Positions 1 through 19,836 of a DNA stretch of 32,713 bases are shown here, piece by piece. Both the position numbers and the translations under genes were made by a program. The first letter of the stretch is position 1. The number at the start of each line of letters is the position of its first letter. The DNA is from a virus, in IMG/VR virus record IMGVR_UViG_3300007344_008816, positions 1-32,713 of that record. The stretch is one strand, 5' to 3'. The notes beneath the pieces are model-generated. The model was not told where the DNA came from, ran no database searches, and worked only from the letters and a program-made list of their open reading frames with translations.

Positions 1-2709
1 CTTCTAGCAGTGGGTGGAATAAACATTAACATAATAGACGAAAACGCTAACTTAAACGCTATAATAGAAACGGTTAAACAGTCTCAAGAAAGTTTTATTA
101 AAAAGAGCTCAGATCTAGATTCTGAAATATCGAGAATAAAAACAAAAATGGCTGAAATAAAGCCAACAACTGATCGCGTAAAAGAGTTACTTATTGAATT
201 AGATAGTGCATGTTTTTCACAACAAGATGAACCGGTTTCAGATGCAGACTTAGAAGCCAAAGTAAAAGATGCAAAAGGAAAAGACCCATTTGGAGCAAAA
301 TCATTTGATGAAACAGATCCTACTCTTCCTTCTATATATGATTACCGATATTGGCTTGAGTTTTCAAAGGTTGTAAACAAAGTAGGTTTGCTTCCTCTTC
401 CTAGTAAGATACCTACTTCTTTACGATATTGGCCTGTTGGTTTGTTTTTTCCTACACCGGTTGGAAAACTAATAAAAATACCTCTTCCTATTATATGGAT
501 CCCTTTGTTAGTAACCCCTACTCCGATAGGTGTCACTGTTATATTTCTAACCATAAATGGACTTTTTATAAGCCCTATTATTTTTAATATAAATGCAACT
601 GGAACAAAACAACATATATTAACAGCAAGAGGACCTAGTAGACAATTTGGATATACAGATGATCCAATAAGCCAGCTTTTAAGATTACCTTTAAATCTAG
701 CTTCAGCTAAATTATCATCTCTTAATCAGGGAGGGCTTGCTAAACTAAGTAAAACAGAAAAAGAATCTTATGAAGCAGAATTAAAAGCTTTAGAAGAGAA
801 GCGGGATAGAGCTACTCCTGGTAGTCGTAGGTATATTAAAATACAATCTAAGATAGACAACTTAAAAGAATCTGTTTCAGGTAAATCTCAAGAGGAAATA
901 ACTAAAGAAGCTATAGATAAAGAAGAATCTCCTCAAGATGCTATAGACAATGCTAAATCTTCAGTCAAAGACAGAATGAATCAACTTGGAGAACCTGAGT
1001 TCTCAAACAGTAGAGCCATTCAACAGCAGATAGAAAACAGGAGAGTAGAAAAACGTAAAGAAATAGACAAGGTTTACAAATCCGACCTTTCACCAAAAGA
1101 AAAGAGAAAAAAATTAAAACAACTTAGAAGGGAACTTAAAGAAGAAGGTGTATCTAAACAGGTAAAAGAAGATGCTATTAGAAAAGATTCTATGTCTTTT
1201 TTTGATAAAATAAAATTACCTTCTATAAAGATACCTGCTGATTCTACAAAGCTTAATCCTCCGCCTACCGCAATGGAACAGCTTAAAGATCGAACTGAGG
1301 AAAATGCAAGTAATTTTAAAGATGATCCTACTTCTAAAGAAAACCGAATGGTTAAAAACGCTATGCGTAGAGAGTTACCTACAGTAGCTGAATTAATAGA
1401 GATAAATGATATTCCAGTAAATGCTAACAATAAGATAGAAATATTAGGTAATGAAGCTGCAATAAAATCAAAATTAAATCAGATAAATCAAGCAATTGTA
1501 GATAAACTAAAAGGCGTTAGTAATCTAAATGAGGAACAAACAAAACAACAGATAGAGGATTTAAAAACCAGAATAGAATCAGAACAGGATAGTTCTACTA
1601 AAAAGCAATTAAAAAGAGATTTAAAAAAACTTGAAGCAAAGCTTAGTAATCATAATGAAGCTCAACAAAATAAAAAAGACAACTCATTAGATCAGGAAAA
1701 ATTAAATGAAGTTTCAGATACTAAATTTAGTTTTAATCCATTAAAAAGTTTAAGTGAATTACAACCTAAAAAAATTGACTTTACACCTAAGGAAAGCGAT
1801 CTATTACCCATTTCACAAGCAGATGCTTTATTAAAATCTTACATATCAGGGTTAACTTCTAATGATATAATATCTCTTTTTGGAGGATCTAAAGAGGTAA
1901 CAGTTTCATCTATTCAAGACGTACATTTTAATATAATCAATACACAAGTTCCTGATACGCTTGTAATGAAAAATAAAACAAGTTCAAAAGATATCTTAAA
2001 GTCTTCTTCAGGTGTTCTTTCTTCAATAGCTATTCCATCTAAAGAAATTGGTTTATTGTCAGCCTTTACTCTTTCAAAAAAGATACCTATTGATTTAAAC
2101 ATGTTACTTGGTCCTCTTAGAAAAAAGGTAACGGAAGATTTACAAAATCTAGATGGCTGCTTACCTGTAGATATAGAAAATAATTTTAGCAGTTTAAGCT
2201 CTACTGATATAAAGGTGTTCATAGAAAACAAAGTAATAGAAAAACTAGATACCTTAACTAGCATACTTGTTCCTCTTTACATCTTAATAAAGTTAGCTAA
2301 ATCTACTAAAGGTATTACTCTTTCCCAATCACAGATAACATCTTTTTTGACTCCTCCATTTGGTCCTCTGGATTTTGCATTATTTACTGCCACTGCTCTT
2401 GCTAAAGTAAACGCACCTAATTCAAATAGTTTAGGTATATACAATATAGAGGCTATAAAAAAAGCAAAGGAAACAATAGATCCAATACTCTCTCCAATAA
2501 TGGATAATCCTGTTAGTTATATAATACCTGCAAGTGCAGCTAGTATAGGTCTTGCTAAGATTCAAAGACTATTACATCCTGTTATAGCAGCTGATGACAT
2601 ACCGCCTTGGGAGAGACTTTCTAGTAGAAATTTCTTATTTGTTTTATTTCTAGATGAGTTTATTTCAGAAGCTGCTGAAAAAGTTGGATTTTTTAGGTCA
2701 TTTATCTAA
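1..2709 (+). CDS. Large unrecognised protein, probably virion-associated; open at left edge
   Basis: I do not recognise this protein. The frame is open back to base 1; the first possible start inside the window is GTG at 10, so the gene may begin upstream. From that GTG it is 899 aa. The N-terminus (about 10-65) is helical and coiled-coil-like. Residues about 139-194 are strongly hydrophobic and rich in Pro and Ile, with no clean transmembrane spacing. Residues 245-300, 335-400 and 480-560 are highly charged and coiled-coil-like. The C-terminal third is mixed, with a hydrophobic end. Size, coiled coils and lack of an enzymatic motif suggest a structural, baseplate or injected protein, but this is inference. 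It ends 43 nt before the S1-like gene on the same strand. Confidence 0.6.
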   Translation, partial: LLAVGGININIIDENANLNAIIETVKQSQESFIKKSSDLDSEISRIKTKMAEIKPTTDRVKELLIELDSACFSQQDEPVSDADLEAKVKDAKGKDPFGAKSFDETDPTLPSIYDYRYWLEFSKVVNKVGLLPLPSKIPTSLRYWPVGLFFPTPVGKLIKIPLPIIWIPLLVTPTPIGVTVIFLTINGLFISPIIFNINATGTKQHILTARGPSRQFGYTDDPISQLLRLPLNLASAKLSSLNQGGLAKLSKTEKESYEAELKALEEKRDRATPGSRRYIKIQSKIDNLKESVSGKSQEEITKEAIDKEESPQDAIDNAKSSVKDRMNQLGEPEFSNSRAIQQQIENRRVEKRKEIDKVYKSDLSPKEKRKKLKQLRRELKEEGVSKQVKEDAIRKDSMSFFDKIKLPSIKIPADSTKLNPPPTAMEQLKDRTEENASNFKDDPTSKENRMVKNAMRRELPTVAELIEINDIPVNANNKIEILGNEAAIKSKLNQINQAIVDKLKGVSNLNEEQTKQQIEDLKTRIESEQDSSTKKQLKRDLKKLEAKLSNHNEAQQNKKDNSLDQEKLNEVSDTKFSFNPLKSLSELQPKKIDFTPKESDLLPISQADALLKSYISGLTSNDIISLFGGSKEVTVSSIQDVHFNIINTQVPDTLVMKNKTSSKDILKSSSGVLSSIAIPSKEIGLLSAFTLSKKIPIDLNMLLGPLRKKVTEDLQNLDGCLPVDIENNFSSLSSTDIKVFIENKVIEKLDTLTSILVPLYILIKLAKSTKGITLSQSQITSFLTPPFGPLDFALFTATALAKVNAPNSNSLGIYNIEAIKKAKETIDPILSPIMDNPVSYIIPASAASIGLAKIQRLLHPVIAADDIPPWERLSSRNFLFVLFLDEFISEAAEKVGFFRSFI

Positions 2710-2752
2710 AACCAAATCTATAATATCAATATAATAATTAAAAATATAGTAT

Positions 2753-3946
2753 ATGCAAAAAGGAAATGTCAAGTATGAATCACCTATTGAAGATTTCGAT
2801 TGGGATTCTTTAACAAATGATAAGTATAATAACAAAATAAAACTCTCAGAAGCTGACAAAAAAGAGGGTACTAGAGTACTATGTAAGGAGTCATATGCTC
2901 AGGAATTATACGACATGTATAAAAAGTACGAAGTTGAAAACGAGGTAAACTTACATGTCAGTAAAGACTTAACTATAGGTGAAGTGTATAAAGTACATGC
3001 TAAGAGTATCTGTCTTGATACTGAAACTATTAAAACAGTTGAAGATAACTCTGGTGTTGAAATAATTATTCCATTAAAAGAATACGGTGGAGATATAGAA
3101 GAACTTAAAAACGGTCATGGAACCGCTTTTAAAGTTATACTTTATAAGTCAAGTGAAAACTGTGAATATGTAGCTTCAGAGAAAAAGAGCAGATCTATTA
3201 ATTATAGAGACGAACTTTTAGAACACTTTGATTCAAATACATGGTTTGATGTTAAAATCAAGAGACTTATTAAAGGTGGATATATCGCAACTTATAAGGA
3301 CGAGATTGAATGTTTCATACCTGGTTCTCAAGCTGGCGCAAATGTAATAAAAGATTTTTCTATTTTATTACATAAAACAATCCCAGTAATGGTAGATAAT
3401 TATGATAAGTCAAATAACTTATTTATTGTTTCTTATAAGAAGTATATTAAACATAGCCTACCTGAAAAAGTTTCTGACTTAAGATTTGGAAAATTATACA
3501 CAGGTACTTTAACTAATAAACCATATGACTTTGGTGTTTTTGTAGAACTTGAAAATTACTATACTGGTCTTATTCATAGTTCAGATTTTGAGAATTATGA
3601 CTCAATTAAAAAGAGTCTTAAAGCCGGTGATGATATAGACGTTTATGTAAAAGGTGTTTCTTACAAAAAGAATCAATATAGAATAGTTTTATCTTTAAAT
3701 AAAGATTCTATACCTGATGATTTAATTAAATGGGATCAGTTAAAAGAAGACTTGGAAGGAAACAAGTTTGAGTTTACTGAACATGAAACAAAAAGAAATA
3801 CTATAATGATGTATTACAACGGTGAATCTATAGAATTACATCTAGATAAGAAATATAGAAAGCTTAATATTTCTGATTTTTCAAAAGTTCTTATTCACAG
3901 AGTGGACTCTGTAAACAAGAGGTTAAATTATTCTTTAACTAACTAG
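2753..3946 (+). CDS. S1-domain RNA-binding protein (ribosomal protein S1-like)
   Basis: This 397-aa protein has three consecutive S1-like (OB-fold) modules: roughly residues 73-143, 160-235 and 245-316. The last is the clearest, with the typical series GKLYTGTL, FGVFVEL, GLIHSSDF, KAGDDIDVYV and RIVLSL. The first two are degenerate. Bacterial ribosomal S1 uses such modules to bind mRNA single strands and bring them to the 30S subunit. A phage copy could favour phage mRNAs, steer host ribosomes or act in RNA turnover; the role is inferred. The ATG start follows an A/T-rich leader without Shine-Dalgarno sequence, as is usual in this window. Two hairpin terminators follow before nrdB. It could also be an exoribonuclease-associated S1 protein, but no nuclease domain is visible. 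Confidence 0.8.
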   Translation: MQKGNVKYESPIEDFDWDSLTNDKYNNKIKLSEADKKEGTRVLCKESYAQELYDMYKKYEVENEVNLHVSKDLTIGEVYKVHAKSICLDTETIKTVEDNSGVEIIIPLKEYGGDIEELKNGHGTAFKVILYKSSENCEYVASEKKSRSINYRDELLEHFDSNTWFDVKIKRLIKGGYIATYKDEIECFIPGSQAGANVIKDFSILLHKTIPVMVDNYDKSNNLFIVSYKKYIKHSLPEKVSDLRFGKLYTGTLTNKPYDFGVFVELENYYTGLIHSSDFENYDSIKKSLKAGDDIDVYVKGVSYKKNQYRIVLSLNKDSIPDDLIKWDQLKEDLEGNKFEFTEHETKRNTIMMYYNGESIELHLDKKYRKLNISDFSKVLIHRVDSVNKRLNYSLTN

Positions 3947-4082: not shown

Positions 4083-5042
4083 ATGTATTTAAAGAATTCA
4101 GATAAAGAAAAACGATACTCAATCTTCCCAATTAAAAATCAAGATTTATGGGATGCTTATAAAGCAGCTGAAAAACAAACATGGGTAGCTGAAGAAGTAA
4201 ATTTAGCTCAAGATGATTATGATTCATTACCAGATAATGAAAAATTATATTTAAAGAATATTTTAGCTTTCTTTACAATCTCAGACGGTCTAGTTATAGA
4301 TAACTTATGCGATAATGTAATAGACAATGTAGAAATTGCTGAAGCTAAATATTACTATAATCATCAAATGTTTATTGAACAGGTTCACGCTAACGCATAT
4401 TCTTTACTGATAGATACATATATCAAAGACCCTAAAGAAAAAACAGAACTTTTTGATTCAATGTTAACTAATAAAGCTGTAAAAGACAAAGCATCTTGGG
4501 CAGAATATTGGTTAAATAATGGTACATTCGTTGAGAAACTAATTGCATTTGCATGTGTTGAAGGTATAGCATTCTCATCAGTGTTTGCTGGAGTATTCTG
4601 GTTTAGAAGCAGAAAGAAAATGCCAGGGTTAGCTGAAATGAATGAATTTATCGTAAGAGATGAATCATTCCATTATGAATTCGCAGTTCAAATGTTTAGA
4701 GAATATGTAAAAGACGAGTATAAACCATCTAAAGAGAGAATTAGAGAAGTTATACTTTCTTGTTTTGAAACAGAAAAAACATTTGTTGAAAGAAGTATGC
4801 CAGAAGGTCTTCAAGGAATGACTAAAGATGATATGATTGAATATGTTAAATTTGTAACTGATATTGTTTTAAATGACTTTACAGGTGAAACAGAATTCAA
4901 AACTAAAAATCCACTTGATTTCATGAAGAAAATTGGATTATCATCTAAAAACAATTTCTTTGAGAGAAGAACTGGCGGAGAATACACAAGAGTAGACATA
5001 CCTACTAGTAATGTTGGTATTTTCGATGAAGTTGATTTTTAG
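4083..5042 (+). CDS. nrdB: Class Ia ribonucleoside-diphosphate reductase, beta (R2) subunit
   Basis: R2 supplies the diferric-tyrosyl radical used by NrdA to reduce ribonucleoside diphosphates to deoxyribonucleotides for phage DNA synthesis. At 319 aa it is near full length. All metal ligands and the radical residue can be assigned by motif: D68 (FTISDGL), E99 and H102 (FIEQVH), E160 (ACVEGIAF), E194 and H197 (VRDESFH), and the radical tyrosine Y106 (HANAY). The motif FTISDGLVIDNL is closer to the eukaryote-type R2 group than to E. coli NrdB. The ATG start follows an A/T-only leader. It is followed after 80 nt by nrdA; the gap holds a 24-bp tandem repeat. The order B then A is the reverse of E. 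coli. Confidence 0.96.
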   Translation: MYLKNSDKEKRYSIFPIKNQDLWDAYKAAEKQTWVAEEVNLAQDDYDSLPDNEKLYLKNILAFFTISDGLVIDNLCDNVIDNVEIAEAKYYYNHQMFIEQVHANAYSLLIDTYIKDPKEKTELFDSMLTNKAVKDKASWAEYWLNNGTFVEKLIAFACVEGIAFSSVFAGVFWFRSRKKMPGLAEMNEFIVRDESFHYEFAVQMFREYVKDEYKPSKERIREVILSCFETEKTFVERSMPEGLQGMTKDDMIEYVKFVTDIVLNDFTGETEFKTKNPLDFMKKIGLSSKNNFFERRTGGEYTRVDIPTSNVGIFDEVDF

Positions 5043-5122: not shown

Positions 5123-7291
5123 ATGAAGATAATAAAAAGAGACGGTAGTAAACAATCTTTTATGCCTAATAAGATATTAACTAGGATAAAGACACAATCA
5201 GTTGGATTAACTATTAATCCTGACATGCTTTTTCAAAGGGTTATACCTCATATTAAAGATGAGATGACAGCTACTGACATAGATGAAATTATAGCTTTTC
5301 AAACAGCAGACCTTCAGATTCAACACCCTGACTATGCAATATTAGGAGGCAGAATACTTGTTTCTAGACAAGGTAAACTTTTAGAAGTAGAAGAAAAAGG
5401 AGTAGATGAAAAATTCGACTCATTTGCTGCTTCTACTTTTCTTACTAAATATTCTGAGAAAAACGAAGACGGTATTCCTATAGAGATTCCTTCAATGATG
5501 CATAATAGAGTAGCTAACCATTTATACCCAGAATCTTTTAAAGATAGAAGAAAATTGTTAAATGAATTATACGAAAAGAAAATTAACTTTGCTACACCTA
5601 TTTTGAGTAATTCAGGAGTAGAAGGAAGAAATGGATTAATTAGCTGTAATCTTACTACTCTTATGGATGACAGTATTGAAGGTATTAATGCTACTCTTGA
5701 TAAAATTGCACATGGATCTAAAGAAGGTTCTGGTATTGGACTATGTATTGATAGACTTAGAAGCTCTAAGAGTATGGTTACTAGTTTTAAAGGTAAAGCC
5801 GGAGGTGTAGTTAGATTCGCAGATATGGTTCAAGCAAAAATGAGATTCTATAAACAAGGAAATAGATCTGGAAGTTGCGCCCTATACTTATCAACTTGGC
5901 ATAAAGATATCTTACCGTTCTTAGAATTAAGATTACCTATAGGTGAAGAATTAAATAGAGCAAGAGATCTTTTTACAGCTGTTACTATTGATGATATTTT
6001 CATGGATGCATTGCTTAATGGTAAAAAGTACTACCTGTTTTGTCCTAATGATATTAAAAAAGCTGGCTTAAAAGCTTTTTATGAAATCCATGGAGAAGAA
6101 TTTAAAGAAGAGTACTATAAAGCAATTGAATTAGGATTAGGAGAAGCGGTAGAACCTAGAAAAATATGGGATGCTATTATTCGCTCTCAAGTAGAGAGTG
6201 GTACACCATATACTTTCTTTAAAGATAACGCTAATCGTAGAAATATGCAAGCTAATATTGGAATTATAAATCAATCTAATTTATGTGCAGAGATTATGCA
6301 AGCAAGTTTACCCACGTACACTCCTCAGTGTACCTTAGCCTCTATAAACCTAGCTGAGCATGATAACTTAAGAACCATAGCAAAGTCCACTAAAGTGCTT
6401 GTAAGAGCCCTTAATAAAGTAATAGATAATAATAAATGGTCAGACGAGTGGAGTAAAAAAGCTGGAGAAGACCAGAGAGCTATTGCAGTTGGTGTAGCAG
6501 GACTTGCTGATTTCTTTGCTAAGAAAAAGATTTCATTTGAAAGTGAAGAGGCTAAAAAGTGGAATAATGATATTTTTGAAACAATGTATAAAGCAGCTGT
6601 TGAAGAAAGTATGACAATAGCCATTGAAGATGATGAAAATTATCCAGCATGGGAAGGTAGCCCATATAGTAAAGGAGAAACCTATATTGAAGATTGGTCT
6701 CCACTAGGTAAAGGTGAACCTATCCCTATGAAAAACTCATTACTTTTAGGTTTAATGCCAACTGCTTCAAGTGCTATACTTCTTGGTTCATTTGAATGTT
6801 TTGAACCTGTTACATCTAATGTATTTAATAGAATGGTAGGTGGCGGAGAATTCGTAGTAATCAATAAATACTTGGTTAGAGAACTTGATGAGTTAGGTAT
6901 TTGGAATAATGATATACGAGATAAAATAATAGCCAATGACGGTAGTGTTCAGGATATTCAAGAAATACCTGAAGACGTTAGATATAGATATAAAACTGTT
7001 TGGGAAATTCCACAAAAAGTGTTACTTGATTTAGCAGTTATTAGAAACAAATACGTAGATCAATCTCAGAGCTTAAATGTTTATCATAGAGACGCTAAAT
7101 ATAGTAAAATATCAAGTGCTCTAGTATACGCTTGGAAAAACGGTTTAAAGACTGGTTCATATTATACTAGAACCAAATCTAAACTTTCAAAGAATAGGAA
7201 ATTGTCTGCTTCAGATAATGAGGCGGCGTCTACTCCAAAAAGACCTGAAAACTCAATGTTTACATGTGCTGGTGGAGGTTGCGACGCATAA
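5123..7291 (+). CDS. nrdA: Class Ia ribonucleoside-diphosphate reductase, alpha (R1) subunit
   Basis: R1 is the catalytic subunit that reduces NDPs to dNDPs together with NrdB. At 722 aa it is slightly shorter than E. coli NrdA (761). Residues about 1-90 form an ATP-cone allosteric domain (MKIIKRDGSK start). Catalytic residues are visible: C175 (LISCNL) and C403 (QCTLAS) as the active-site disulphide pair, N386/C388/E390 (NLCAE) as the radical site, Y680-Y681 as the radical-transfer pair (GSYYTR), and the C-terminal redox cysteines C715 and C720 (CAGGGC). There is no intein, although phage nrdA is a frequent intein host. It ends 55 nt before a terminator hairpin shared with the convergent minus-strand operon. 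Confidence 0.97.
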   Translation: MKIIKRDGSKQSFMPNKILTRIKTQSVGLTINPDMLFQRVIPHIKDEMTATDIDEIIAFQTADLQIQHPDYAILGGRILVSRQGKLLEVEEKGVDEKFDSFAASTFLTKYSEKNEDGIPIEIPSMMHNRVANHLYPESFKDRRKLLNELYEKKINFATPILSNSGVEGRNGLISCNLTTLMDDSIEGINATLDKIAHGSKEGSGIGLCIDRLRSSKSMVTSFKGKAGGVVRFADMVQAKMRFYKQGNRSGSCALYLSTWHKDILPFLELRLPIGEELNRARDLFTAVTIDDIFMDALLNGKKYYLFCPNDIKKAGLKAFYEIHGEEFKEEYYKAIELGLGEAVEPRKIWDAIIRSQVESGTPYTFFKDNANRRNMQANIGIINQSNLCAEIMQASLPTYTPQCTLASINLAEHDNLRTIAKSTKVLVRALNKVIDNNKWSDEWSKKAGEDQRAIAVGVAGLADFFAKKKISFESEEAKKWNNDIFETMYKAAVEESMTIAIEDDENYPAWEGSPYSKGETYIEDWSPLGKGEPIPMKNSLLLGLMPTASSAILLGSFECFEPVTSNVFNRMVGGGEFVVINKYLVRELDELGIWNNDIRDKIIANDGSVQDIQEIPEDVRYRYKTVWEIPQKVLLDLAVIRNKYVDQSQSLNVYHRDAKYSKISSALVYAWKNGLKTGSYYTRTKSKLSKNRKLSASDNEAASTPKRPENSMFTCAGGGCDA

Positions 7292-7382: not shown

Positions 7383-8033
7383 CTAGAAATTAGTTTCTGA
7401 ATTGTCTAATTTAGAAAGCATATAATCCATTGCTTCTCTTGGAGTATCAACCAGTTTAAATAGATCTAAATCTTCTGGTGAAATGTTACCTTCTTTTTTA
7501 AGCATCGTCTTTTTAATCCAATCTAACATACCTTTCCAGTAGTCTTTTCCATATAATACTACTGGTACTTTTCTCATATGTCCAGTTTGAATTAAGGTTA
7601 AAGTTTCAAATAATTCATCCAATGTTCCAAATCCTCCTGGAAAGGCAACAAATGCTTGTGAATATTTTAAGAAGAAAACCTTTCTTGTAAAGAAATATCT
7701 ACAATCCACTAATTCATCTATGTAATCGTTCTCTTTTGCTTCGAAAGGTAATTGTATTTTTAATCCTACTGATACCTGATCTGTTTCATGTGCACCAAAA
7801 TTAGCAGCTTCCATTATACCCGGTCCGCCGCCACTTATTACTCCATAACCGTTTTCTGTACATAGATATGAAAGCTTAGCTGCATCTTTATAATACTTAT
7901 GAAGAGTATCTGTTCTAGCTGAACCAAATATCGAAATACATGGTCCTATTTGAGATAATTGATCAAACCCTTTGATAAATTCTCCTTGTATTCTTAATAC
8001 TTGCCATGCGTCATCTATCTTTTTATTTTCCAT
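7383..8033 (-). CDS. LOG-family (TIGR00730, 'lysine decarboxylase-like') Rossmann-fold protein
   Basis: This 216-aa protein has both LOG hallmarks: SGGGPGIMEAA (residues 67-77) and PGGFGTLDE (132-140), with R117 and K118 in between. Characterised LOG proteins hydrolyse the N-glycosidic bond of nucleoside 5'-monophosphates (cytokinin riboside 5'-monophosphate phosphoribohydrolases). The wider SLOG superfamily binds nucleotides in stress and conflict systems. The PGGxGTxxE motif is intact, so activity is plausible; the substrate is unknown. It is the last gene of the minus-strand operon, starting 1 nt after the 51-aa gene. It could handle modified nucleotides, cleave a nucleotide signal or feed purine salvage; none of this is shown by the sequence. 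Confidence 0.9.
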   Translation of the reverse strand: MENKKIDDAWQVLRIQGEFIKGFDQLSQIGPCISIFGSARTDTLHKYYKDAAKLSYLCTENGYGVISGGGPGIMEAANFGAHETDQVSVGLKIQLPFEAKENDYIDELVDCRYFFTRKVFFLKYSQAFVAFPGGFGTLDELFETLTLIQTGHMRKVPVVLYGKDYWKGMLDWIKKTMLKKEGNISPEDLDLFKLVDTPREAMDYMLSKLDNSETNF

Positions 8034-8034
8034 A

Positions 8035-8190
8035 TTAATCTAAAGAGTTTTTTGTTACCCAATATCTATAGCCTAGTAATAACTTTTGCATTTTATTGAG
8101 TTCATATACATTTACACCTCGTTTACTTAGACTAGGTATTATTATTTTATTTATCCTAGCTAATATTTTAAATAGAGGTTTACTATTCAT
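8035..8190 (-). CDS. 51-aa basic protein ending in a YRYWVTKN motif
   Basis: This small gene fills the gap between yqeY and the LOG gene. It is coupled to both: its ATG (8190-8188) overlaps the yqeY stop as TAATG, and its TAA lies 1 nt before the LOG start. The protein starts MNSKPLFKILARINKI and is basic, with a hydrophobic stretch (KIIIPSL) and a C-terminal block GYRYWVTKNSLD. I have a weak memory of similar short phage proteins ending in a YWVTKN block but cannot name a family. The exact fit between neighbours is strong evidence that it is real. It contains one copy of the GATAAATAA motif (8147-8155, minus strand), which could be an internal promoter for the LOG gene or coincidence. Confidence 0.75.
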   Translation of the reverse strand: MNSKPLFKILARINKIIIPSLSKRGVNVYELNKMQKLLLGYRYWVTKNSLD

Positions 8191-8585
8191 TATGATAATA
8201 GTTCTTTTGTTATAGTAGAAGCTAATTTACCGTCGTACTGGCCATCGAAGTTGTCTTTTAAATATCCCATTACTTTACCCATTCCTTTCATTCCAGATAG
8301 GGATTCTTTCATAATAAATCCTCCTATCTTTGCTCTTAAAATATCTTCAGACATTTGAGTAGGTAAATATTCATCTATTATCAATAGCTCTTCATTTGTC
8401 AATGAATTAGTTGCTTCTGCGTTTTTAACCATTGATTTTAGCTTAGATATTATATAATTATCCTCTGGAGTTTTGCTTTCTTTTGTAACTTCTGTTTTTA
8501 TGACTCCTAAGAAGTTTTTTCTTTGCATGTCTTTTGCTTTATATGCAGACATAAAATCCTCATTTATCTTTTCTATTAAATTCAT
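8190..8585 (-). CDS. yqeY: YqeY / GatB-C-terminal-domain-like protein
   Basis: This 131-aa protein has the YqeY pattern: N-terminal MNLIEKINEDFMSAYKAKD, then RKNFLGVIKTEV, LLIIDEYLPTQMSED and a C-terminal GMGKVMGYLKDNFDGQYDG. The domain occurs free-standing in bacteria and fused to GatB/GatE subunits of the tRNA-dependent amidotransferase, where it binds tRNA; the free form has no well-defined role. I chose the ATG at 8585 because it overlaps the upstream gene's TGA as ATGA. An upstream in-frame ATG at 8618 would add 11 residues that do not fit the family. The next gene overlaps by 1 nt. Confidence 0.88.
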   Translation of the reverse strand: MNLIEKINEDFMSAYKAKDMQRKNFLGVIKTEVTKESKTPEDNYIISKLKSMVKNAEATNSLTNEELLIIDEYLPTQMSEDILRAKIGGFIMKESLSGMKGMGKVMGYLKDNFDGQYDGKLASTITKELLS

Positions 8586-8992
8586 ACTTTTATCTTTTTT
8601 TCTAATACTATACTCCAAAACAATTCAAAAGTTATTGAAAATATGGTTTTTAATATAATAATATCTATTAAAGTATTTATCCAACCTGTTTCAAATACTG
8701 ATACTATTCCATCTCCATAGAAAGCTGCTCCTAATATAAAGAATGTTATCATAAAAGATTGTGCAAAATGCCATAAGTCAGTTACCCAAACAAATATAGT
8801 AGATGAACCAGGAAACTTTTCCCCATTTAAACTATTACTATTGTTTTTCCATTTGTTTTTATAACTAATCGCAGGATTAGCCCACCATTCAAATCGACTA
8901 CCTTTAAAAACGCTATTATCCCAATGAAAATTAACTTTATCCATTACTGCATTGCATATGGCTGCTAACACAAAAAATAAAACACTTATCAT
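8582..8992 (-). CDS. Integral membrane protein, unknown
   Basis: This 136-aa protein is not recognised. It has an N-terminal hydrophobic segment (MISVLFFVLAAICNAVMD), a Trp/Asn-rich soluble loop (about 20-70), and two more hydrophobic segments (about 75-92 and 105-130), giving about three membrane passes and a basic tail (EKKIKV). It is translationally coupled to yqeY by an ATGA overlap and follows the zinc-ribbon membrane protein by 5 nt, so the two may form a membrane pair. No lysis or holin signature can be claimed, although a small multi-pass phage protein could be a holin-like protein. Confidence 0.75.
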   Translation of the reverse strand: MISVLFFVLAAICNAVMDKVNFHWDNSVFKGSRFEWWANPAISYKNKWKNNSNSLNGEKFPGSSTIFVWVTDLWHFAQSFMITFFILGAAFYGDGIVSVFETGWINTLIDIIILKTIFSITFELFWSIVLEKKIKV

Positions 8993-9403: not shown

Positions 9404-10912
9404 TTAAAATAATTCGTCGCTTATTGTTAATATACTAAGTTGGTCTTCATCCTCTATTAATTTAACTGGGAATCCCCATAAAAGCGCTACGTTATCCACT
9501 ACTGTGTCTACTGTTTCCATGTTAAGTCTCTTTTCATTTATAGGAGTAAAGTTTAAAGTTAGTGTTCTATCTCCATTTACATCTACATCATATACTTGAA
9601 TATCTGGAATATATGTAGATCTATTATATGTTTCAGAAAGACTTTTTCTAACATGTTTGTATCCTCTTTCATTATGAATAGCTCCTATTTCATAAAATCT
9701 TCTCTCCTCTTTATCGTCTACTTCAAATAATTTCATATCTCGTATCACTTTAGGAGAAAGATATTGTAGTACAAAGGTTTCATCTTTAAAGTTCTCCACG
9801 ATGTATCTAAATGTACCTGGCCAATCTTTGTTTCCTGCTATATCTGGAAACCATTGTTTATCTTCTTCTGTTGGGTCTAATGCCATTCTTTTCAAGTCAT
9901 TAAAGATATTAAAACCTAAAGTATATGGATTTATACCTGAATAGAATTTTGAATCAAATCCAGGTTGAAAGATTACGTTTGAATGATTATGGAAAAATTC
10001 CATCATAAACCCTTCGTCTAAGTAACCTTCTTCATACATCTGATTGATTATTTCATAATGACTAAATGTTGCACATCCTTCGTTTATTACTTTTGTTTGT
10101 CCTTGTGGATAAAAATATTGAGCAGTTTTTCTAACTATTCTAATTAATTCTCTTTGCCATGTCTTTAAACTAGGAGAATTCTTCTCTATAAAATAAAGTA
10201 TATTTTCCTCAGGTTGACTCGGGAATCTTTCTTTTCTAGCTTTTCTCTTTGTTGTGTTTTCAGGTAAGGTTCTCCAAATATCGTTTACTAGTACTCTATC
10301 GTCTTCTAGTTTTTTCTTTAACCTTTCTTGTTCCTCTTTTGCGGATATTCTAGTAGGTTTAGTGTACTTGTCAACGCCATATCTTTGTATCATATGACAA
10401 GCATCTAGTATTTTTTCTACCTCTTCGTACCCGTATCTTTCTTCACAATCACTTACATATTTTCTAGCAAATAACATGTAATCAACAATAGCATCTGCAT
10501 GCGTCCATTGTTTAAATAAGTAATTATTTTTAAAGAAGTGATTATGTCCATATGCGGCATGTGCTAATACTAATAACATTAAACATGTAGTATTATCTTC
10601 CATATTATAAGAGATACATGGATTTGAATTAATAACTAATTCATACGCTAATCCCATTTGACCTTTTTTATATCTAGACTTGTTTATAACAAAGTCTTTA
10701 CCAAATTTCCAGTGATTATAAGAAATAGGCAATCCAACAAGCGAATATGCATCAAGCATTTGCTCAGATGTAACTATTTCAAATTGGTTTGGGTAAGTTT
10801 CTAAACCAAGATGATCTTTAGCTATTCTACTAATTATTTTATCAGCTTCTAGAATAGTATCTTCATTCCAGTCTGACCTTGAAAACATCTCTCTTAATTT
10901 TTGCTTTGTCAT
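9404..10912 (-). CDS. spoVR: SpoVR family protein (YcgB homologue)
   Basis: At 502 aa it matches E. coli YcgB (about 510 aa) over its whole length. Family features include the conserved ANxF-type His-rich block LAHAAYGHNHFFKNN, HADAIVDYMLFARKYVSDCEERYG with the following RYGVDKY, the segment NEGCATFSHYEIINQMYEEG, and INPYTLGFNIFNDLKRMA. In Bacillus SpoVR affects spore cortex formation. In proteobacteria ycgB is found with yeaG and yeaH and is stress- and stationary-phase-linked; the biochemical activity is unknown. The ATG overlaps the YeaH-like stop as ATGA, so the two are translationally coupled. It is part of the complete PrkA-YeaH-SpoVR triad, which is unusual in a phage. Confidence 0.95.
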   Translation of the reverse strand: MTKQKLREMFSRSDWNEDTILEADKIISRIAKDHLGLETYPNQFEIVTSEQMLDAYSLVGLPISYNHWKFGKDFVINKSRYKKGQMGLAYELVINSNPCISYNMEDNTTCLMLLVLAHAAYGHNHFFKNNYLFKQWTHADAIVDYMLFARKYVSDCEERYGYEEVEKILDACHMIQRYGVDKYTKPTRISAKEEQERLKKKLEDDRVLVNDIWRTLPENTTKRKARKERFPSQPEENILYFIEKNSPSLKTWQRELIRIVRKTAQYFYPQGQTKVINEGCATFSHYEIINQMYEEGYLDEGFMMEFFHNHSNVIFQPGFDSKFYSGINPYTLGFNIFNDLKRMALDPTEEDKQWFPDIAGNKDWPGTFRYIVENFKDETFVLQYLSPKVIRDMKLFEVDDKEERRFYEIGAIHNERGYKHVRKSLSETYNRSTYIPDIQVYDVDVNGDRTLTLNFTPINEKRLNMETVDTVVDNVALLWGFPVKLIEDEDQLSILTISDELF

Positions 10913-12177
10913 ACCTTTTCTCTTTTCTTAAAGAAGTCTTTAAATACTTCCCATATTTCAGTATTATCTAATATTCTTCCTATATTTAGATTGTTTACAT
11001 TTTTAACAACGCTATCGTATTGATCATATAATGTGCTTATTCTGCTCCTAGCTACTTCAATATAGATCATATATTGAATCTTTTTAAGTAACTTATTATG
11101 TAACATTACTCCACAGTCTATAGCATCTGTTAAGTCCCATACATCTCCGTCTGATGCCTGGGCTGCATAAATATTCCAATCAGAGGAATATCTTTCTTCT
11201 ATAATTTTGTCCATTAATTCTAAACTAGGTAACACTATAGTTCCTCCACTTTCTCTAGAATTAAAAAATTCTTCTTCAGTTACTTCTTTAGCTTGCGTAT
11301 GGTGTCTGATAAAAACAATTTCAATACGTTCATACTGTTTAGTTAAAAACAAGTATAGTAACATAAAGAATCTTTTAGCGATATCTTTCTCCTTTTCTCC
11401 CATTGAACCTGATACGTCCATTATGCAAAACATAACAGCTGAGGTAATAGGAACTGGGTATTTCTCATAATTATTATACTGTAAATCAATCTCTTCCATG
11501 AAATTGATAGACATTTTCATATTAGTAAGTTTCTCTAGCTCTTTTTCTAGTTCTTCTTTTTGAGCTTTAGTTAACTGTTTGTCTTTTAGCTTTTCCTCAA
11601 CTTCTTTGATCTTTTTATCAAAGAATATTCCTGTAGCCATTTTTCTACTCATTGAGTTTTTATAAGACTTAACAACATTTAATCTATTCGGAGAACCTGC
11701 ATTGGTAAAACCTGCTCTTTTTTGTTTCCAATCTACAACAGTGTTTAAATGTTTTTTTACCATATTAGGAAGTTCTAAATCATCAAAGAAATAATCTAAA
11801 AATTCTTCTCTACTTATTGTTATAGTAAAATCGTCTTCTGTTACAGTTGGGTCGTTAGATCCTTTTTGACCACGACCTCCTCCTTCTCCGGATAATGGCT
11901 TTCTAATAGTATCTCCTGGAACATACTCTTTGTTACCAGGGTGGACGTGTTTTTTATCACCTGTTTTACCGTCATAACTAAATTCCGGTTCATTTATTCC
12001 CTTAACAGGTATTTTAACACCTTTCTTAGATGAAGTTAAATCCTTAACATTATTATTTTTGATAATATTGGGCATAGCTTTTTTAATCTTATGCCCAATT
12101 CTTTTAAGTAACTTCTGTCTATTTGGTGAAGATTTACCTTTGGGATTATTTCTTTTATCTACAATGTTAATACCCAT
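10909..12177 (-). CDS. yeaH: YeaH/YhbH family (DUF444) von Willebrand A-domain protein
   Basis: At 422 aa it matches E. coli YeaH (about 427 aa). The N-terminal half is basic and includes a Gly-rich stretch (GEGGGRGQKG) typical of DUF444, then the ISREEFLDYFFDDLELPNMVKK block. The C-terminal half is a VWA domain with an intact MIDAS start DVSGSMGEKEKD (Asp-x-Ser-x-Ser), a basic strand-helix region VFIRHHTQAKEV, and SGGTIVLP. DUF444 proteins accompany PrkA kinases and are thought to be partners or targets. The start lies 14 nt after the prkA stop; the end overlaps the spoVR start by 4 nt. There are no truncations. Confidence 0.94.
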   Translation of the reverse strand: MGINIVDKRNNPKGKSSPNRQKLLKRIGHKIKKAMPNIIKNNNVKDLTSSKKGVKIPVKGINEPEFSYDGKTGDKKHVHPGNKEYVPGDTIRKPLSGEGGGRGQKGSNDPTVTEDDFTITISREEFLDYFFDDLELPNMVKKHLNTVVDWKQKRAGFTNAGSPNRLNVVKSYKNSMSRKMATGIFFDKKIKEVEEKLKDKQLTKAQKEELEKELEKLTNMKMSINFMEEIDLQYNNYEKYPVPITSAVMFCIMDVSGSMGEKEKDIAKRFFMLLYLFLTKQYERIEIVFIRHHTQAKEVTEEEFFNSRESGGTIVLPSLELMDKIIEERYSSDWNIYAAQASDGDVWDLTDAIDCGVMLHNKLLKKIQYMIYIEVARSRISTLYDQYDSVVKNVNNLNIGRILDNTEIWEVFKDFFKKREKV

Positions 12178-12191
12178 ATGTATAAATCTTT

Positions 12192-14114
12192 TTAATTGCT
12201 TTTTCTAACTCTTAAATACCAATCTGTTAATAATTTAATTTGTTTATTAGTGTATCCTCTTTCTTTCATTCTTTCAATAAATTCAGAGTGTTTCTTCTCT
12301 TCATCTTTAGATGTTTTTGTAGAAAAAGATATAACTGGAATCAAATCTTCAGTTTTAGAAAAGATTCTTTTTTCAATAACATTCTTGATCTTTTCATAAG
12401 ATTCCCATTTAGGAGATTCTCCATGCTTAGCTTTATGTCTTAAATAGAATTGAACTAAATCGTTTCTAAAATCCTTTGGATTAGCTATTCCTGCTGGTTT
12501 TTCAATTTTTTCTAGCTCTTCATTAAGTGAACCTCTATCGAATTGTTGACCGGTTTCAGGATCTCTGTAGTCGTTGTCTTGGCACCAGTGGTCTGCATAC
12601 GTTATATATCTTTCAAAAAGATTTTGACCATATTCTTGATATGAATCAACATAAGCTTTTTGAATTTCATCTCCAATAAACTCAGCGTATTTAGAAGAGA
12701 TTGTAGATTTAAGAATACTTAAATAATAATCTTGTAAATCTGCTGGCAATTGTTGTTTAATAATTTCTTGTTCCAATACATAAAAAAGATGTACTGGATT
12801 AGCTGCAATCTCATCAGAATCATGGTTAAATACTTTAGATAATACTTTAAATGCAAAACGGGTTGAAATACCGTCCATACCTTCTGTGATTCCAGCAAAG
12901 TCTTTATATTCTTGAAGTGATTTAGCTTTAGGGTCAACTTCTTTTAAGTTCTCACCGTTGTATATTCTCATTTTAGAAAACATTGTTGAGTTTTCAGGAT
13001 CAATCAATCTTGTCATAATACAAAATTGAGCTAATAACTCTAATGTTTTAGGAGCACACGGTGCTTCAGATAATGAAGAATGATTTAATAGTTTTTCATA
13101 GATTTTAACTTCTTCATCTACTCTTAAACAATAAGGAACTCTTACAATATAAACCCTGTCTAGGAATGCTTCGTTTTTTCTATCGTTTGAGAATGTCTCC
13201 CATTCTGATTCATTTGAGTGTGCTAATATAACACCTTGGAAAGGAATTGCTGGTAAATTTTCTGTACCATTAAAGTTTCCTTCTTGTGTTGCAGTCAATA
13301 ATGGGTGTAATACTTTAATCGGTGCTTTAAACATCTCAACGAATTCCATTAAACCTTGATTAGACTTACATAACGCACCGGAATAGCTATAAGCATCTGC
13401 GTCATCTTGCGAGTATTCAGCCAATTTTCTAATATCAACCTTACCAACTAAAGCTGAAATATCTTGGTTGTTTTCATCACCAGGTTCAGTTTTTGAGATA
13501 CCTAATTGAGATGCAATTGATAACTTAATTTTTCTAACTGAGAATTTAGTAATATCTCCTCCAAACTCGGCTAATCTCTTGGTTGCCCAAGGTGAAGCAC
13601 ATGATGGAATATATCTTCCTGAGATACCATATTCTTCTTCTAATTCTGTTTTATAAGAAGAAAATAAACCTAAAGGATTTTCTAGCACCGGTGACATTTC
13701 TCCATCTGCTACTAAAACATAAATATGGCTATTTTCCATTAATTGCTTTAGTCTCTCTGCTAACGAGGATTTACCACCACCAACAGGTCCTAATAAATAT
13801 AAAACTTGTTTCTTTTCTTCTAGTCCTTGTGCTGCATGTTTAAAGAATGATACAATCTGTTCAATAGTATCTTCCATGCCATAGAAGTCCTTAAATGAAG
13901 GGTATCTTTTAATTTTTTTGTTTGAATGTATTCTACTTAATCTAGGATCATCTTTAGTGTTTACTAACTCAGGCTCTCCTATCGCTTCTAACATTCTCTC
14001 CGCTGGTGTTGAATACACCGCTTTATCTTTTTTACAAAGGCTTAAATATTCTGTAATTTTAATATCTTCAGAATTTGATTCAAATCCGCTCTTAATTTTC
14101 TTCAAAAGACTCAT
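12192..14114 (-). CDS. prkA: PrkA-type serine protein kinase / AAA+ protein (YeaG homologue)
   Basis: At 640 aa it matches E. coli YeaG (644 aa) end to end. An N-terminal AAA+ domain carries GMEDTIEQIVSFFKHAAQGLEEKKQ and the Walker A LLGPVGGGKSS (about 107-117), both almost identical to bacterial PrkA. HPLLTATQEGNFNGTE and ILAHSNESEWETF are also family blocks. The C-terminal region is the PrkA kinase-like domain. Bacterial PrkA is a stress, starvation and sporulation-related kinase; YeaG with YeaH supports survival of nitrogen starvation in E. coli. It is the first gene of an eight-gene operon. A GATAAATAA late-promoter-like motif lies 42 nt upstream. The near-perfect preservation of length and motifs argues for selection in the phage rather than a decaying host fragment. 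Confidence 0.96.
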   Translation of the reverse strand: MSLLKKIKSGFESNSEDIKITEYLSLCKKDKAVYSTPAERMLEAIGEPELVNTKDDPRLSRIHSNKKIKRYPSFKDFYGMEDTIEQIVSFFKHAAQGLEEKKQVLYLLGPVGGGKSSLAERLKQLMENSHIYVLVADGEMSPVLENPLGLFSSYKTELEEEYGISGRYIPSCASPWATKRLAEFGGDITKFSVRKIKLSIASQLGISKTEPGDENNQDISALVGKVDIRKLAEYSQDDADAYSYSGALCKSNQGLMEFVEMFKAPIKVLHPLLTATQEGNFNGTENLPAIPFQGVILAHSNESEWETFSNDRKNEAFLDRVYIVRVPYCLRVDEEVKIYEKLLNHSSLSEAPCAPKTLELLAQFCIMTRLIDPENSTMFSKMRIYNGENLKEVDPKAKSLQEYKDFAGITEGMDGISTRFAFKVLSKVFNHDSDEIAANPVHLFYVLEQEIIKQQLPADLQDYYLSILKSTISSKYAEFIGDEIQKAYVDSYQEYGQNLFERYITYADHWCQDNDYRDPETGQQFDRGSLNEELEKIEKPAGIANPKDFRNDLVQFYLRHKAKHGESPKWESYEKIKNVIEKRIFSKTEDLIPVISFSTKTSKDEEKKHSEFIERMKERGYTNKQIKLLTDWYLRVRKSN

Positions 14115-15593: not shown

Positions 15594-15857
15594 ATGAGTA
15601 ATCAATTTGAAGAACTTAGAAAAACAGTCTATGATGTGAAAGAATCTCTTTTCGCAGAAATAGAGGAATTAATCGCTACATGCGAAGAAGACGCTGACAA
15701 GTTTTATGAAAAAGGAAACAAAAGCGCAGGTACTAGAATTAGAAAAAGTGCTCAATTAATTAGAAAGCAAATTCATCATCCATCTATTAGAAAACAAATG
15801 GTTAAGATTGAAGAGGCAGCTAAGACTTTGAGAACAACTATTTCTGAAACTAATTAA
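15594..15857 (+). CDS. Histone H1-like (Hc1 family) DNA-binding protein
   Basis: This 87-aa protein has the Hc1-type core DADKFYEKGNKSAGTRIRKS, followed by a basic helix AQLIRKQIHHPSIRKQ. This pattern is shared with the small histone-H1-like proteins of Bacteroidota and chlamydial Hc1, which bind and condense DNA. The N-terminal half is acidic and helical rather than Lys-rich, so nucleic-acid binding may be weaker or modulated. It sits between a probable packaged protein gene and the gp32-type gene. It could organise intracellular phage DNA or be packaged with it. The family also supports a Bacteroidota host. ATG start after an A/T-rich leader. Confidence 0.8.
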   Translation: MSNQFEELRKTVYDVKESLFAEIEELIATCEEDADKFYEKGNKSAGTRIRKSAQLIRKQIHHPSIRKQMVKIEEAAKTLRTTISETN

Positions 15858-17376: not shown

Positions 17377-18489
17377 ATGGTTTACCTAATAGACGGAAAT
17401 GCATATATAAACGTAGCACTAAATGTCATAAAAAGAATGCTTTTTAATGATAAGTCTAGTAGCGAAGACTATTATATGGAAGATATATTCAATGAAGGCA
17501 AATATGTTTTAAAAGAAACCTCTAGAATTAGATTTAGAGATTTTTGTCTAAATTATTTGTCTTCATTGATTTCTCCTGTTTACTCTGAAACTAGAGAAGT
17601 TCATATAGTATTTGATTCCAAGAGTTGGAGAAAAGAATACGTTAAATCTTTTTTTGAAAAAGAAGACTCTACTGATGATTTTCAATATAAGTCAGGTAGA
17701 AAAAAAGATGAAATGATACATCTTTTCTTTGAGTATTTTCAAAACACTATTCAACCTCATCTAGAAAAAGAACCGGGTATTAATTTCCATAGAATAAATG
17801 GAATGGAAGGAGATGACATCATAGCAACGCTAACTGAACGTAATAAAAATACTATTATTTACACTGTTGATAAAGACATGATACAGCTTGTAAAAAATAG
17901 TGGAAATTACGTTATAATGATTATGCCTAAGATGATGACAAAAACTAAAAAATTATTTTATGCTAAAGCTGATAATGCATCTAGCTCTGATTTTTTTAGT
18001 TTAAGTGGAACTGACTTAACTGGAGGTGTAGACACTATCATATCTAAATTTGAGAAGAAAGGTTATTCTAAATTTGAAATAGATCCTAAAGAGAGTCTTT
18101 TAACAAAGATATTTGAAGGAGATAAATCAGATAATATTCCTAGAATACATAAAATGACCCCGTCTAAAGTAAAAAAGATGAATACTTATCTTTTAGAAAA
18201 ATACGGAGAAACTATATTTGAAAAATTAGATAACTACAAACAGGAAGAGTCTTTTTTACAAGAATGTGTAGATAAAGTAGTAGAGCTTAATAAAATTAAA
18301 GATGATAGTATAATATCTTCTTTAAAGAGCAACATATCTCTTAACATTAAACTCATTAGATTGTCTACTTCATTGTTACCTGATTCTGTTAAAACAACTG
18401 ACTATGAAGTTATTTCATCAGATAGGACCTATAAAAAGTTTAACTATACAAAGTTAATAGAAATAAAAAATAATTCAGTACTAATATGA
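17377..18489 (+). CDS. rnh: T4 RNase H-type 5'-3' exonuclease (FEN/PIN family)
   Basis: This 370-aa protein would remove RNA primers and flaps from lagging-strand fragments. Metal-binding acidic residues lie in MVYLIDGNAY (D6), HIVFDSKS, NGMEGDDIIATL and TVDKDMIQL, as in FEN-family nucleases. The helix-3-turn-helix DNA-binding element is GDKSDNIPRI followed by KMTPSKVKKM. Length is somewhat above T4 RNase H (305 aa), with extra residues between the active-site blocks (about 185-225). Its TGA overlaps the groES ATG (ATGA), linking the replication and chaperonin genes in one transcript. ATG start at 17377. Confidence 0.9.
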   Translation: MVYLIDGNAYINVALNVIKRMLFNDKSSSEDYYMEDIFNEGKYVLKETSRIRFRDFCLNYLSSLISPVYSETREVHIVFDSKSWRKEYVKSFFEKEDSTDDFQYKSGRKKDEMIHLFFEYFQNTIQPHLEKEPGINFHRINGMEGDDIIATLTERNKNTIIYTVDKDMIQLVKNSGNYVIMIMPKMMTKTKKLFYAKADNASSSDFFSLSGTDLTGGVDTIISKFEKKGYSKFEIDPKESLLTKIFEGDKSDNIPRIHKMTPSKVKKMNTYLLEKYGETIFEKLDNYKQEESFLQECVDKVVELNKIKDDSIISSLKSNISLNIKLIRLSTSLLPDSVKTTDYEVISSDRTYKKFNYTKLIEIKNNSVLI

Positions 18490-18785
18490 AACCATTATAC
18501 GAAAGAATTTTAATTAAACCTATTGAAAAGGAAACTCAAACAAAATCAGGAATCCTTTTACCCGGTAAAGCCGTAAAAAGACCTAATATTGGAACAGTTA
18601 TTGCTTGTGGAGAAGGAACTACTCATAATCCAATGAAAGTTGAACCTGGTGACATTGTTCTATGTAATAGATACGCTGGAATAGATATAGTTTATAATGA
18701 TACTCCTCATTATGTCATTATGTCTAATGAAGTAATCGCAGTATTAGACGATGTTAATGAAGTTAAGCTTGATGAGTATGAATAG
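18486..18785 (+). CDS. groES: GroES-like co-chaperonin
   Basis: At 99 aa it is the typical GroES length. It starts KPLYERILIKPIEKE, then has a mobile loop TQTKSGILLPGKA (about 18-30) that binds GroEL, the IGTVIACGEG strand, VEPGDIVLCNRYAGIDI, and an end IMSNEVIAVLDD. In T4 the analogous role is played by gp31, which works with host GroEL to fold the major capsid protein; this one is recognisably GroES by sequence. No groEL is in the window, so the host chaperonin is the likely partner. Start and stop overlap both neighbours (ATGA with rnh; 8-14 nt with the GMP reductase-like gene). Confidence 0.93.
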   Translation: MKPLYERILIKPIEKETQTKSGILLPGKAVKRPNIGTVIACGEGTTHNPMKVEPGDIVLCNRYAGIDIVYNDTPHYVIMSNEVIAVLDDVNEVKLDEYE

Positions 18786-19806
18786 AAATAAAGTAGACTT
18801 TAATGATATATTAATAAGTCCTAGTATTCAAACTAACGTTACTTCAAGGGGAGATATAGACATCTATTATAAAGATGGAAAATTACCTCTTATAACTGCA
18901 CCTATGGATACTGTTATTTCTAGTGAAAATGAACACTTCTTTACTAGCAATAGAATAATATCATGTTTACCTAGGGGTGAAAAAACAAGTCATGATGGAA
19001 TAGAATCATATTCTCTTTCCGGTATGATAAATCTGGTTAAAAGTGGTAACATTAAGAGACACTCAGGTTACTTAATAGATACTGCTAATGGTCACATCAA
19101 AGATTTAGAAAGCATCACCAGAATCATTAAAAATGAATATGGAGAAGATATTTATCTAATGGTTGGTAATGTTGCTCACCCAAAAACATATAGATTATTG
19201 TCTGAAGCTGGAGCTGATGCTATTAGAATAGGAATAGGTAACGGAGCAGGTTGTTTAACTACTCAACAAACAGGCGTGGGTTACCCCATGGCTTCACTTA
19301 TTCAAGAATGTTATCAAGAATCCATGAATCTCGATACTCCTGCTAAGATAGTTGCAGATGGAGGAATGAAAACATACTCTGATATAATAAAAGCTTTAGC
19401 TTTAGGTGCCGACTTTGTTATGTTGGGTTCTATTTTTAATAAAGCATTGGAAAGTTGTGCAACTTGTATGTATGAATCTCAATTTGGAAAACATCTAGAT
19501 TTAAATGAACTAACCCACGCAGAGGCATTGGAGAAATTTAACTCAGGTATTTCTATATTTAAAAAGTTTAGAGGCATGTCCACTAAAGAGGTTCAACGAA
19601 AATGGGGAAGGGAAGAAATTAAAACTTCAGAAGGCATTTCAGAGATTAGAAAAGTAGAATATACTCTATCAAGTTGGGTAGATAATTTTGAACATTATCT
19701 AAGATCTGCTATGAGTTATACTGATTCAAGATCTCTAGAATCTTTTATTGGAGGTTGCGATATTTTAAATATTACAGATAACTCTTATAAAAGGTTTAAA
19801 AAATAA
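18772..19806 (+). CDS. GMP reductase / IMP dehydrogenase-family protein (no CBS domains)
   Basis: This TIM-barrel enzyme of about 342-344 aa starts at ATG 18772 or 18778, overlapping groES slightly; an earlier in-frame ATG (18751) lies deep in groES. Family blocks are LPLITAPMDTV (N-terminal), GNVAHPKTYRLLSEAGADAIRIGIG, the catalytic loop NGAGCLTTQQTGVGYP with the catalytic Cys (C159 counted from 18778), VADGGM, ADFVMLGS and FRGMST. The TGVGYP motif, the lack of CBS domains and the length near 345 aa favour GMP reductase over IMP dehydrogenase, but direction is not certain. Either activity would adjust guanine nucleotide pools for phage DNA synthesis. Confidence 0.88.
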   Translation: MSMNRNKVDFNDILISPSIQTNVTSRGDIDIYYKDGKLPLITAPMDTVISSENEHFFTSNRIISCLPRGEKTSHDGIESYSLSGMINLVKSGNIKRHSGYLIDTANGHIKDLESITRIIKNEYGEDIYLMVGNVAHPKTYRLLSEAGADAIRIGIGNGAGCLTTQQTGVGYPMASLIQECYQESMNLDTPAKIVADGGMKTYSDIIKALALGADFVMLGSIFNKALESCATCMYESQFGKHLDLNELTHAEALEKFNSGISIFKKFRGMSTKEVQRKWGREEIKTSEGISEIRKVEYTLSSWVDNFEHYLRSAMSYTDSRSLESFIGGCDILNITDNSYKRFKK

Positions 19807-19836
19807 AACCTAAATTATTAAAAAAATCAATTATAT

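Follow-up and report, generated by a model that had tools for sequence, protein, structure and literature searches.

The locus raises the question of what a virus might do with an S1-like protein of its own, when almost none of its genes is preceded by a Shine-Dalgarno (SD) sequence. The window analysed here is the entire virus record IMGVR_UViG_3300007344_008816, a virus fragment of 32,713 bases. An earlier note on this DNA had claimed an S1-like open reading frame at positions 2753-3946 of the plus strand, and the frame is real, with a PF00575 match of 7.7e-14 spread over two stretches. The features needed for the argument are as follows.

10..2709, plus strand: large conserved ORF of 899 codons, function not assigned, possibly incomplete at the record end
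2710..2752, plus strand: A/T-rich leader of 43 bases without SD motif, between the stop of the upstream ORF and the S1 start
2753..3946, plus strand: phage bS1-like protein, ATG start, 397 aa (stop included)
2783..2806, plus strand: PIEDFDWD, residues 11-18 (F15-D16-W17), putative ribosome anchor in common with Bacteroidia-like host bS1
2888..2941, plus strand: conserved helix ESYAQELYD..., residues 46-63 (model helix 49-63), before module 1
2960..3196, plus strand: module 1, residues ~70-148, best match bS1 D1 (P 97.2; next D6, 86.2)
3197..3466, plus strand: module 2, residues ~149-238, best match bS1 D2 (P 98.6, score 78.7; next 39.9)
3467..3709, plus strand: module 3, residues ~239-319, canonical RNA-binding S1 domain with F260, F263 and H275
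3710..3943, plus strand: module 4, residues ~320-397, degenerate OB domain
4083..5042, plus strand: nrdB, ribonucleotide reductase small chain
5123..7291, plus strand: nrdA, ribonucleotide reductase large chain

Domain architecture and relation to bacterial bS1

Tandem S1 (OB) modules are present in the window protein, as two stretches in Pfam and as four successive OB-like units in an AlphaFold2 model (mean pLDDT 85.6, pTM 0.60). The description of the protein as three-module holds for the first three units, which are well matched by sequence profiles, but the model has a fourth, degenerate one (~320-397). bS1 proteins with one to six domains exist, and the four modules thus bar the label 'host-type six-domain bS1' and not 'bS1-like'. 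Domains D5 and D6 are absent after module 4, and the protein of 397 aa lacks the six-domain architecture that is given for bS1 of FCB-group hosts in PMC6705787. The conserved helix before module 1 sits roughly where E. coli bS1 has its uS2-binding helix, with a residue-by-residue register (Phe5/Phe9) that is not fixed. We asked whether this helix is homologous to ESFAQLFEESL of E. coli and do not claim so: ESYAQ resembles ESFAQ, but the structural alignments begin several residues later, at model residues 54-58 against chain residues 1-3.

The earlier note had suggested a profile comparison with host S1 modules, and this comparison (68 phage against 34 Bacteroidota bS1 sequences) gives a colinear match from the N-terminus to D4 with E 2.8e-35. 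Modules 1 and 2 find D1 and D2 as their best partners, in order, and the score of module 2 is twice the next. For modules 3 and 4 the profiles do not decide among D3-D5, and host D5 is a marginally better partner of module 3 than D3 is; the colinearity there is thus based on order and not on score. Searches of the PDB with phmmer also rank bS1 chains first (9zcd_A, 1.2e-13). In Foldseek, the top four hits of the model are bacterial ribosome- or 30S-bound bS1, while in the VIA rows this applies to three of the first four and the remaining one is a chlororibosome chain; model residues 54-317 align with 2-261 of 9gux_B. In NCBIfam, the nine top-ranking models all describe 30S S1 (in one case a fusion with it), and NF004953, the best fit to the host protein P0001, is the only one aligning to the window S1 from residue 8. 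The NCBIfam cut-offs, made for full-length cellular S1, are not reached (best NF005208, 94.8 of 368 bits). A phage protein 45% identical to the window S1, found as a structural match, is already named '30S ribosomal protein S1' in the sequence databases. Judged by these alignments and the predicted fold, the window S1 is a shortened, very diverged bS1 relative rather than part of an RNase or a virion.

Relatives of the window S1 are encoded in 526 stretches of IMG/VR, 80 of which were kept (66 distinct proteins). In a tree built by a quick method only, and with long-branch warnings, the phage S1s group together as a single clade whose stem is very long (5.49 changes per column); the tree does not place this clade inside Bacteroidota and names no donor. 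PHROGs has no family for the window S1, and for six relatives it returned nothing informative, only weak matches to integrase and nuclease families. Compared with the Bacteroidia-type host bS1 (PDB 9zcd_A by sequence; P0001 from locus L025), the phage protein likewise has an F[DN]W peptide, D1 and D2 in order and a D3-type module, but it has four modules in 397 aa at ~20% identity, with D4 degenerate, instead of six S1 domains in ~600 aa. The proteins described as possible rpS1 in huge phages (Al-Shayeb et al. 2020; Prevotella Lak phages and LR records of 460-735 kb) belong to the same gene family and also occur in SD-poor genomes. Lak and LR records match the window S1 at 5e-17 to 7e-6, and the profile search finds them too. 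The window clade is ~23-28% identical to these proteins; Lak S1s are without module 4, whereas in LR phages module 4 is well preserved and the F-D-W peptide is absent. One candidate phage S1, the six-domain protein of MT835643 (L025, 'Bacteriophage sp.'), was set aside as a Bacteroidota host bS1 with 79-89% identity to Bacteroidales-type genomes, and the unverified record MT835643.1 is probably bacterial DNA, at least partly. Short Listeria and Enterococcus records among the matches may be host DNA.

The N-terminal peptide and the RNA-binding residues

Close to their starts, host bS1 (L025) reads SPVENFDWDAF and the phage protein SPIEDFDWDSL, and the two N-termini match at P 95.1 in the profile-profile comparison. 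Of 80 named bS1 loci of Bacteroidales type, 78 encode the peptide. In a phylum sample of 60 genomes, hand-picked down the list of 196 with a match, it is present in 22/23 of one Bacteroidota clade (L107-L129, called Bacteroidia-like on the basis of identity and one clade in the tree) and in 0/37 outside that clade (L130-L166). The bS1 proteins of the latter are without F-D-W, and many have DEYSEEEL-like segments instead. On these sequences, presence or absence of F-D-W is in itself a trait of the host ribosome that differs between clades, and we infer that the peptide would serve the hosts as a ribosome anchor. The open-licence literature searched, at the level of titles and abstract openings, contained neither a description of this peptide nor a docking test of a phage S1.

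Among the 69 distinct phage S1s with an intact N-terminus, 23 carry F[DNE]W near it, where 2000 rounds of shuffling give 0.38 and never more than 4; the motif is seen in 4/393 other ORFs. A looser form of the pattern is found in 28/69, and in 20/24 of a distant branch, while the tryptophan is absent from a large sub-clade (~30 of the 69 sequences) and from the LR megaphages. This distribution fits two readings: the phage S1s may derive from a host bS1 of this type and have lost the peptide later in places, or they may have converged on the same binding site. Either would imply that the N-terminal peptide is under selection.

The residues expected to touch RNA are well conserved. K174, Y177 and F188 align with E. 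coli K117, F120 and F130, the proposed OB2 mRNA pocket (D'Urso 2023, PMC10123108), and F260, F263 and H275 are spaced like Phe19, Phe22 and His34, given as D3 RNA-binding residues in PMC6705787. Over 75 distinct phage S1s, a count that takes in partial sequences, the D2 pocket is kept as K/R at 174 in 57, Y/F at 177 in 74 (one gap) and F188 in 75; the D3 residues are kept as F/Y at 260 in 73, F263 in 75 and H275 in 74. The counterpart of E. coli Lys43, a residue with a minor role in a zinc-pocket salt bridge according to PMC4288201, is absent from the window S1.

Leaders and Shine-Dalgarno use

Two general observations of the earlier note agree with our counts. SD-like tetramers (GGAG/GAGG/AGGA/AAGG at -20..-4) precede 3/27 window genes against 8.7% after shuffling each leader, genes being defined here as ORFs no shorter than 100 aa that begin at their first ATG, so that some starts may be wrong. 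The same scan finds 26/34 in the T4 control (19% expected) and 4/82 in eight relatives. The leaders are indeed A/T-rich: A makes up 74% of the bases at -12 and 63% of those over -17..-10, compared with 37% ahead of internal ATGs. The A peak of the window leaders spans -16 to -10, with additional A at -6 and -3, and the same pattern is reported for F. johnsoniae in PMC6847099. An A-rich, SD-less leader is, in that source (Baez 2019), the signature of the host phylum itself.

The proposal that the phage S1 biases initiation through these leaders did not find support when we turned to Bacteroidota phages in which no S1-domain match was found (PF00575 in 0/6 records), as these are just as A-rich and mostly as SD-poor. 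Their SD counts are 2/43 in PTm1, 3/36 in MaF61, 1/41 in pT24, 0/44 in phiST and 1/46 in Larrie; crAss001 is higher, at 11/37. A-enrichment over -17..-10 is 0.203 in S1-bearing (n=12) and 0.198 in S1-less phages (n=6; Mann-Whitney p=0.96), and leaders that are alike with and without S1 give no sign of tuning to the phage protein. The A1 profile recovers S1 in 9/9 S1-bearing records, some of which are rows of the profile itself, and in 0/4 S1-less ones. Al-Shayeb et al. 2020 (PMC7162821) noted that huge phages with a possible rpS1 rarely bear SD sequences, and suggested that the protein takes part in initiation. Because SD scarcity is equal in S1-less Bacteroidota phages, the host phylum explains this link at least as well, and the published association needs a control for host phylum.

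Candidate roles and genomic surroundings

We consider it probable, from the sequence matches and the model together, that the window S1 is a diverged bS1 relative that stands in for bS1 on the ribosomes of its host, as a surrogate. It would dock through its N-terminal peptide, the helix after it and module 1 where bS1 sits on the 30S neck (uS2/bS18/bS21), and modules 2-3 would grip single-stranded A-rich leaders by the mRNA exit. During infection the phage copy would swap with host bS1, an exchange that we propose to be possible because host bS1 is loosely bound. SD-independent initiation would thereby be kept going and the functions of D5-D6 removed. Such a protein would supply general initiation capacity, and it would not be required to tell phage leaders from host leaders. 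In F. johnsoniae, according to PMC9976891, bS1 raises initiation two-fold on one SD-less message and has little effect on rpsU, so that a phage could plausibly profit from additional S1. A phage bS21 gene is found in 7/21 S1-bearing records, including the contig of the closest relative, and in 0/4 S1-less ones, although many records are fragments and its absences therefore mean little; bS21 contacts OB1 of bS1 in E. coli (PMC10123108). Only as a tentative extension do we suggest that a monophyletic phage S1 family (hundreds of contigs, mostly from Bacteroidota viruses), equipped with the docking peptide of a host clade, refits the 30S mRNA-exit site, sometimes alongside phage bS21. Infected cells would then translate with ribosomes whose S1 consists of D1-D4 and has no D5-D6, a shortened phage arm for SD-independent initiation.

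Other roles can be weighed against the same data. A ribosome-bound phage S1 that picks phage mRNAs by their A/T-rich leaders could draw on the docking and RNA-binding features and on the A-rich leaders of the window; the leaders of S1-less Bacteroidota phages, equally A-rich and mostly equally SD-poor, bear the signature of the host phylum, however, and by base content, which is what the comparison covers, nothing in them flags phage mRNAs as S1 targets. We regard such discrimination as unlikely, and as less likely than a surrogate on the ribosome. Slightly more doubtful still is a dominant-negative plug, a shortened S1 that would take the place of host S1 but deliver mRNA incompletely, lowering host translation or blocking ribosome hibernation. 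The missing D5-D6, the degenerate D4 of the window clade and the retention of the anchor parts while the rest diverged would suit it, but the D2 pocket and the D3 RNA-binding residues are nearly invariant, which is unexpected for a pure plug, and the phage mRNAs, being SD-less as well, would suffer.

The S1 modules could also act away from the ribosome, as an RNA chaperone or mRNA protector, since S1 domains are common in RNA-binding proteins and the peptide tryptophan is absent from the LR megaphages and one sub-clade. The retained bS1-type D2 and N-terminal peptide, and nearest folds that are ribosome-bound bS1, argue against this, and we give it little credence. A virion or RNase component, which the earlier note had named as the finding that would overturn its idea, is very improbable. 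The constant neighbour of S1 is a large ORF without assigned function, which would suit it, but the other neighbours are nucleotide-metabolism genes, Pfam finds no nuclease domain in the 397 aa, and RNase R, PNPase and Tex match single modules only (fold search, NCBIfam). Neither Pfam nor NCBIfam places a catalytic or other large domain beside S1, as in PNPase, RNase R, RNase II or Tex, and both readings were rejected for want of a supporting domain.

Surrogacy on the ribosome has partial precedents. Phage rpS1, its link with missing SD sequences and the idea of hijacking are already in print (Al-Shayeb 2020; PhiMa05 bS1, PMC13157829). Phage bS21 (Mizuno 2019; Chen 2022) is also a viral version of a protein of the 30S platform located at the mRNA exit, and is proposed to exchange with that of the host; it is a different protein, and its entry into E. 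coli ribosomes is shown (cited in PMC9976891), whereas that of phage S1 is only predicted. The bS1 of the Microcystis jumbo phage PhiMa05 is likewise phage-encoded and proposed to replace that of the host, but PMC13157829 traces it to a Vampirovibrio-like host, while our tree gives no donor. Mizuno 2019 left S1 aside, and Al-Shayeb 2020 (PMC7162821) could not confirm a 'true' phage rpS1 because the S1 domain occurs everywhere. New here is a residue-level case, from sequence comparison, that a phage S1 may dock on the ribosome. The D1/D2 match, the clade-specific peptide and the pocket residues together make a sequence test by which a generic S1 protein can be told from a bS1 surrogate, and F15, W17, K174, Y177, F188, F260, F263 and H275 are named for bench work. 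If the proposal is true, a small natural S1 would make SD-less mRNA recruitment by Bacteroidota ribosomes testable.

The order large ORF, S1, nrdB, nrdA recurs in many relatives. The large ORF, for which Pfam and PHROGs give no informative family, always sits next to S1, on its upstream side, in close relatives, and its counterpart also adjoins S1 in two distant ones (L234 and L240). In two relatives (L010/L214) nrdB and nrdA are 80-82% identical to those of the window and S1 only 46%, while the nrd genes in the same place beside S1 in most other relatives (L181-L217) are 21-28% identical; the pair looks, in these comparisons, as if it had been swapped in situ. The best named matches of the window NrdA are Cellulophaga and Tenacibaculum phages, and the tail sheath matches Lak, Flavobacterium MaF61 and Tenacibaculum PTm1, which supports the Bacteroidota host that had been assumed for this virus.

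PADLOC gave no match. A complete prkA-yeaH(DUF444)-spoVR stress-kinase cassette lies at 9404-14114 on the minus strand; its PrkA shares 81-83% identity with that of the 635-642 kb megaphages LR745206 and LR756502, while the S1 proteins of these two share only ~25% with the window S1, a contrast that suggests recent exchange among large phages. A LOG/'lysine decarboxylase'-like protein and a YqeY-like protein are encoded at 7383-8618 on the minus strand. On the plus strand, a GroES-like co-chaperonin, an IMPDH/GMP-reductase-like enzyme and a ClpP-like protease follow one another at 18486-20409, and a histone H1-like Hc1 protein at 15594-15857 has 90-91% identity in the nearest relatives.
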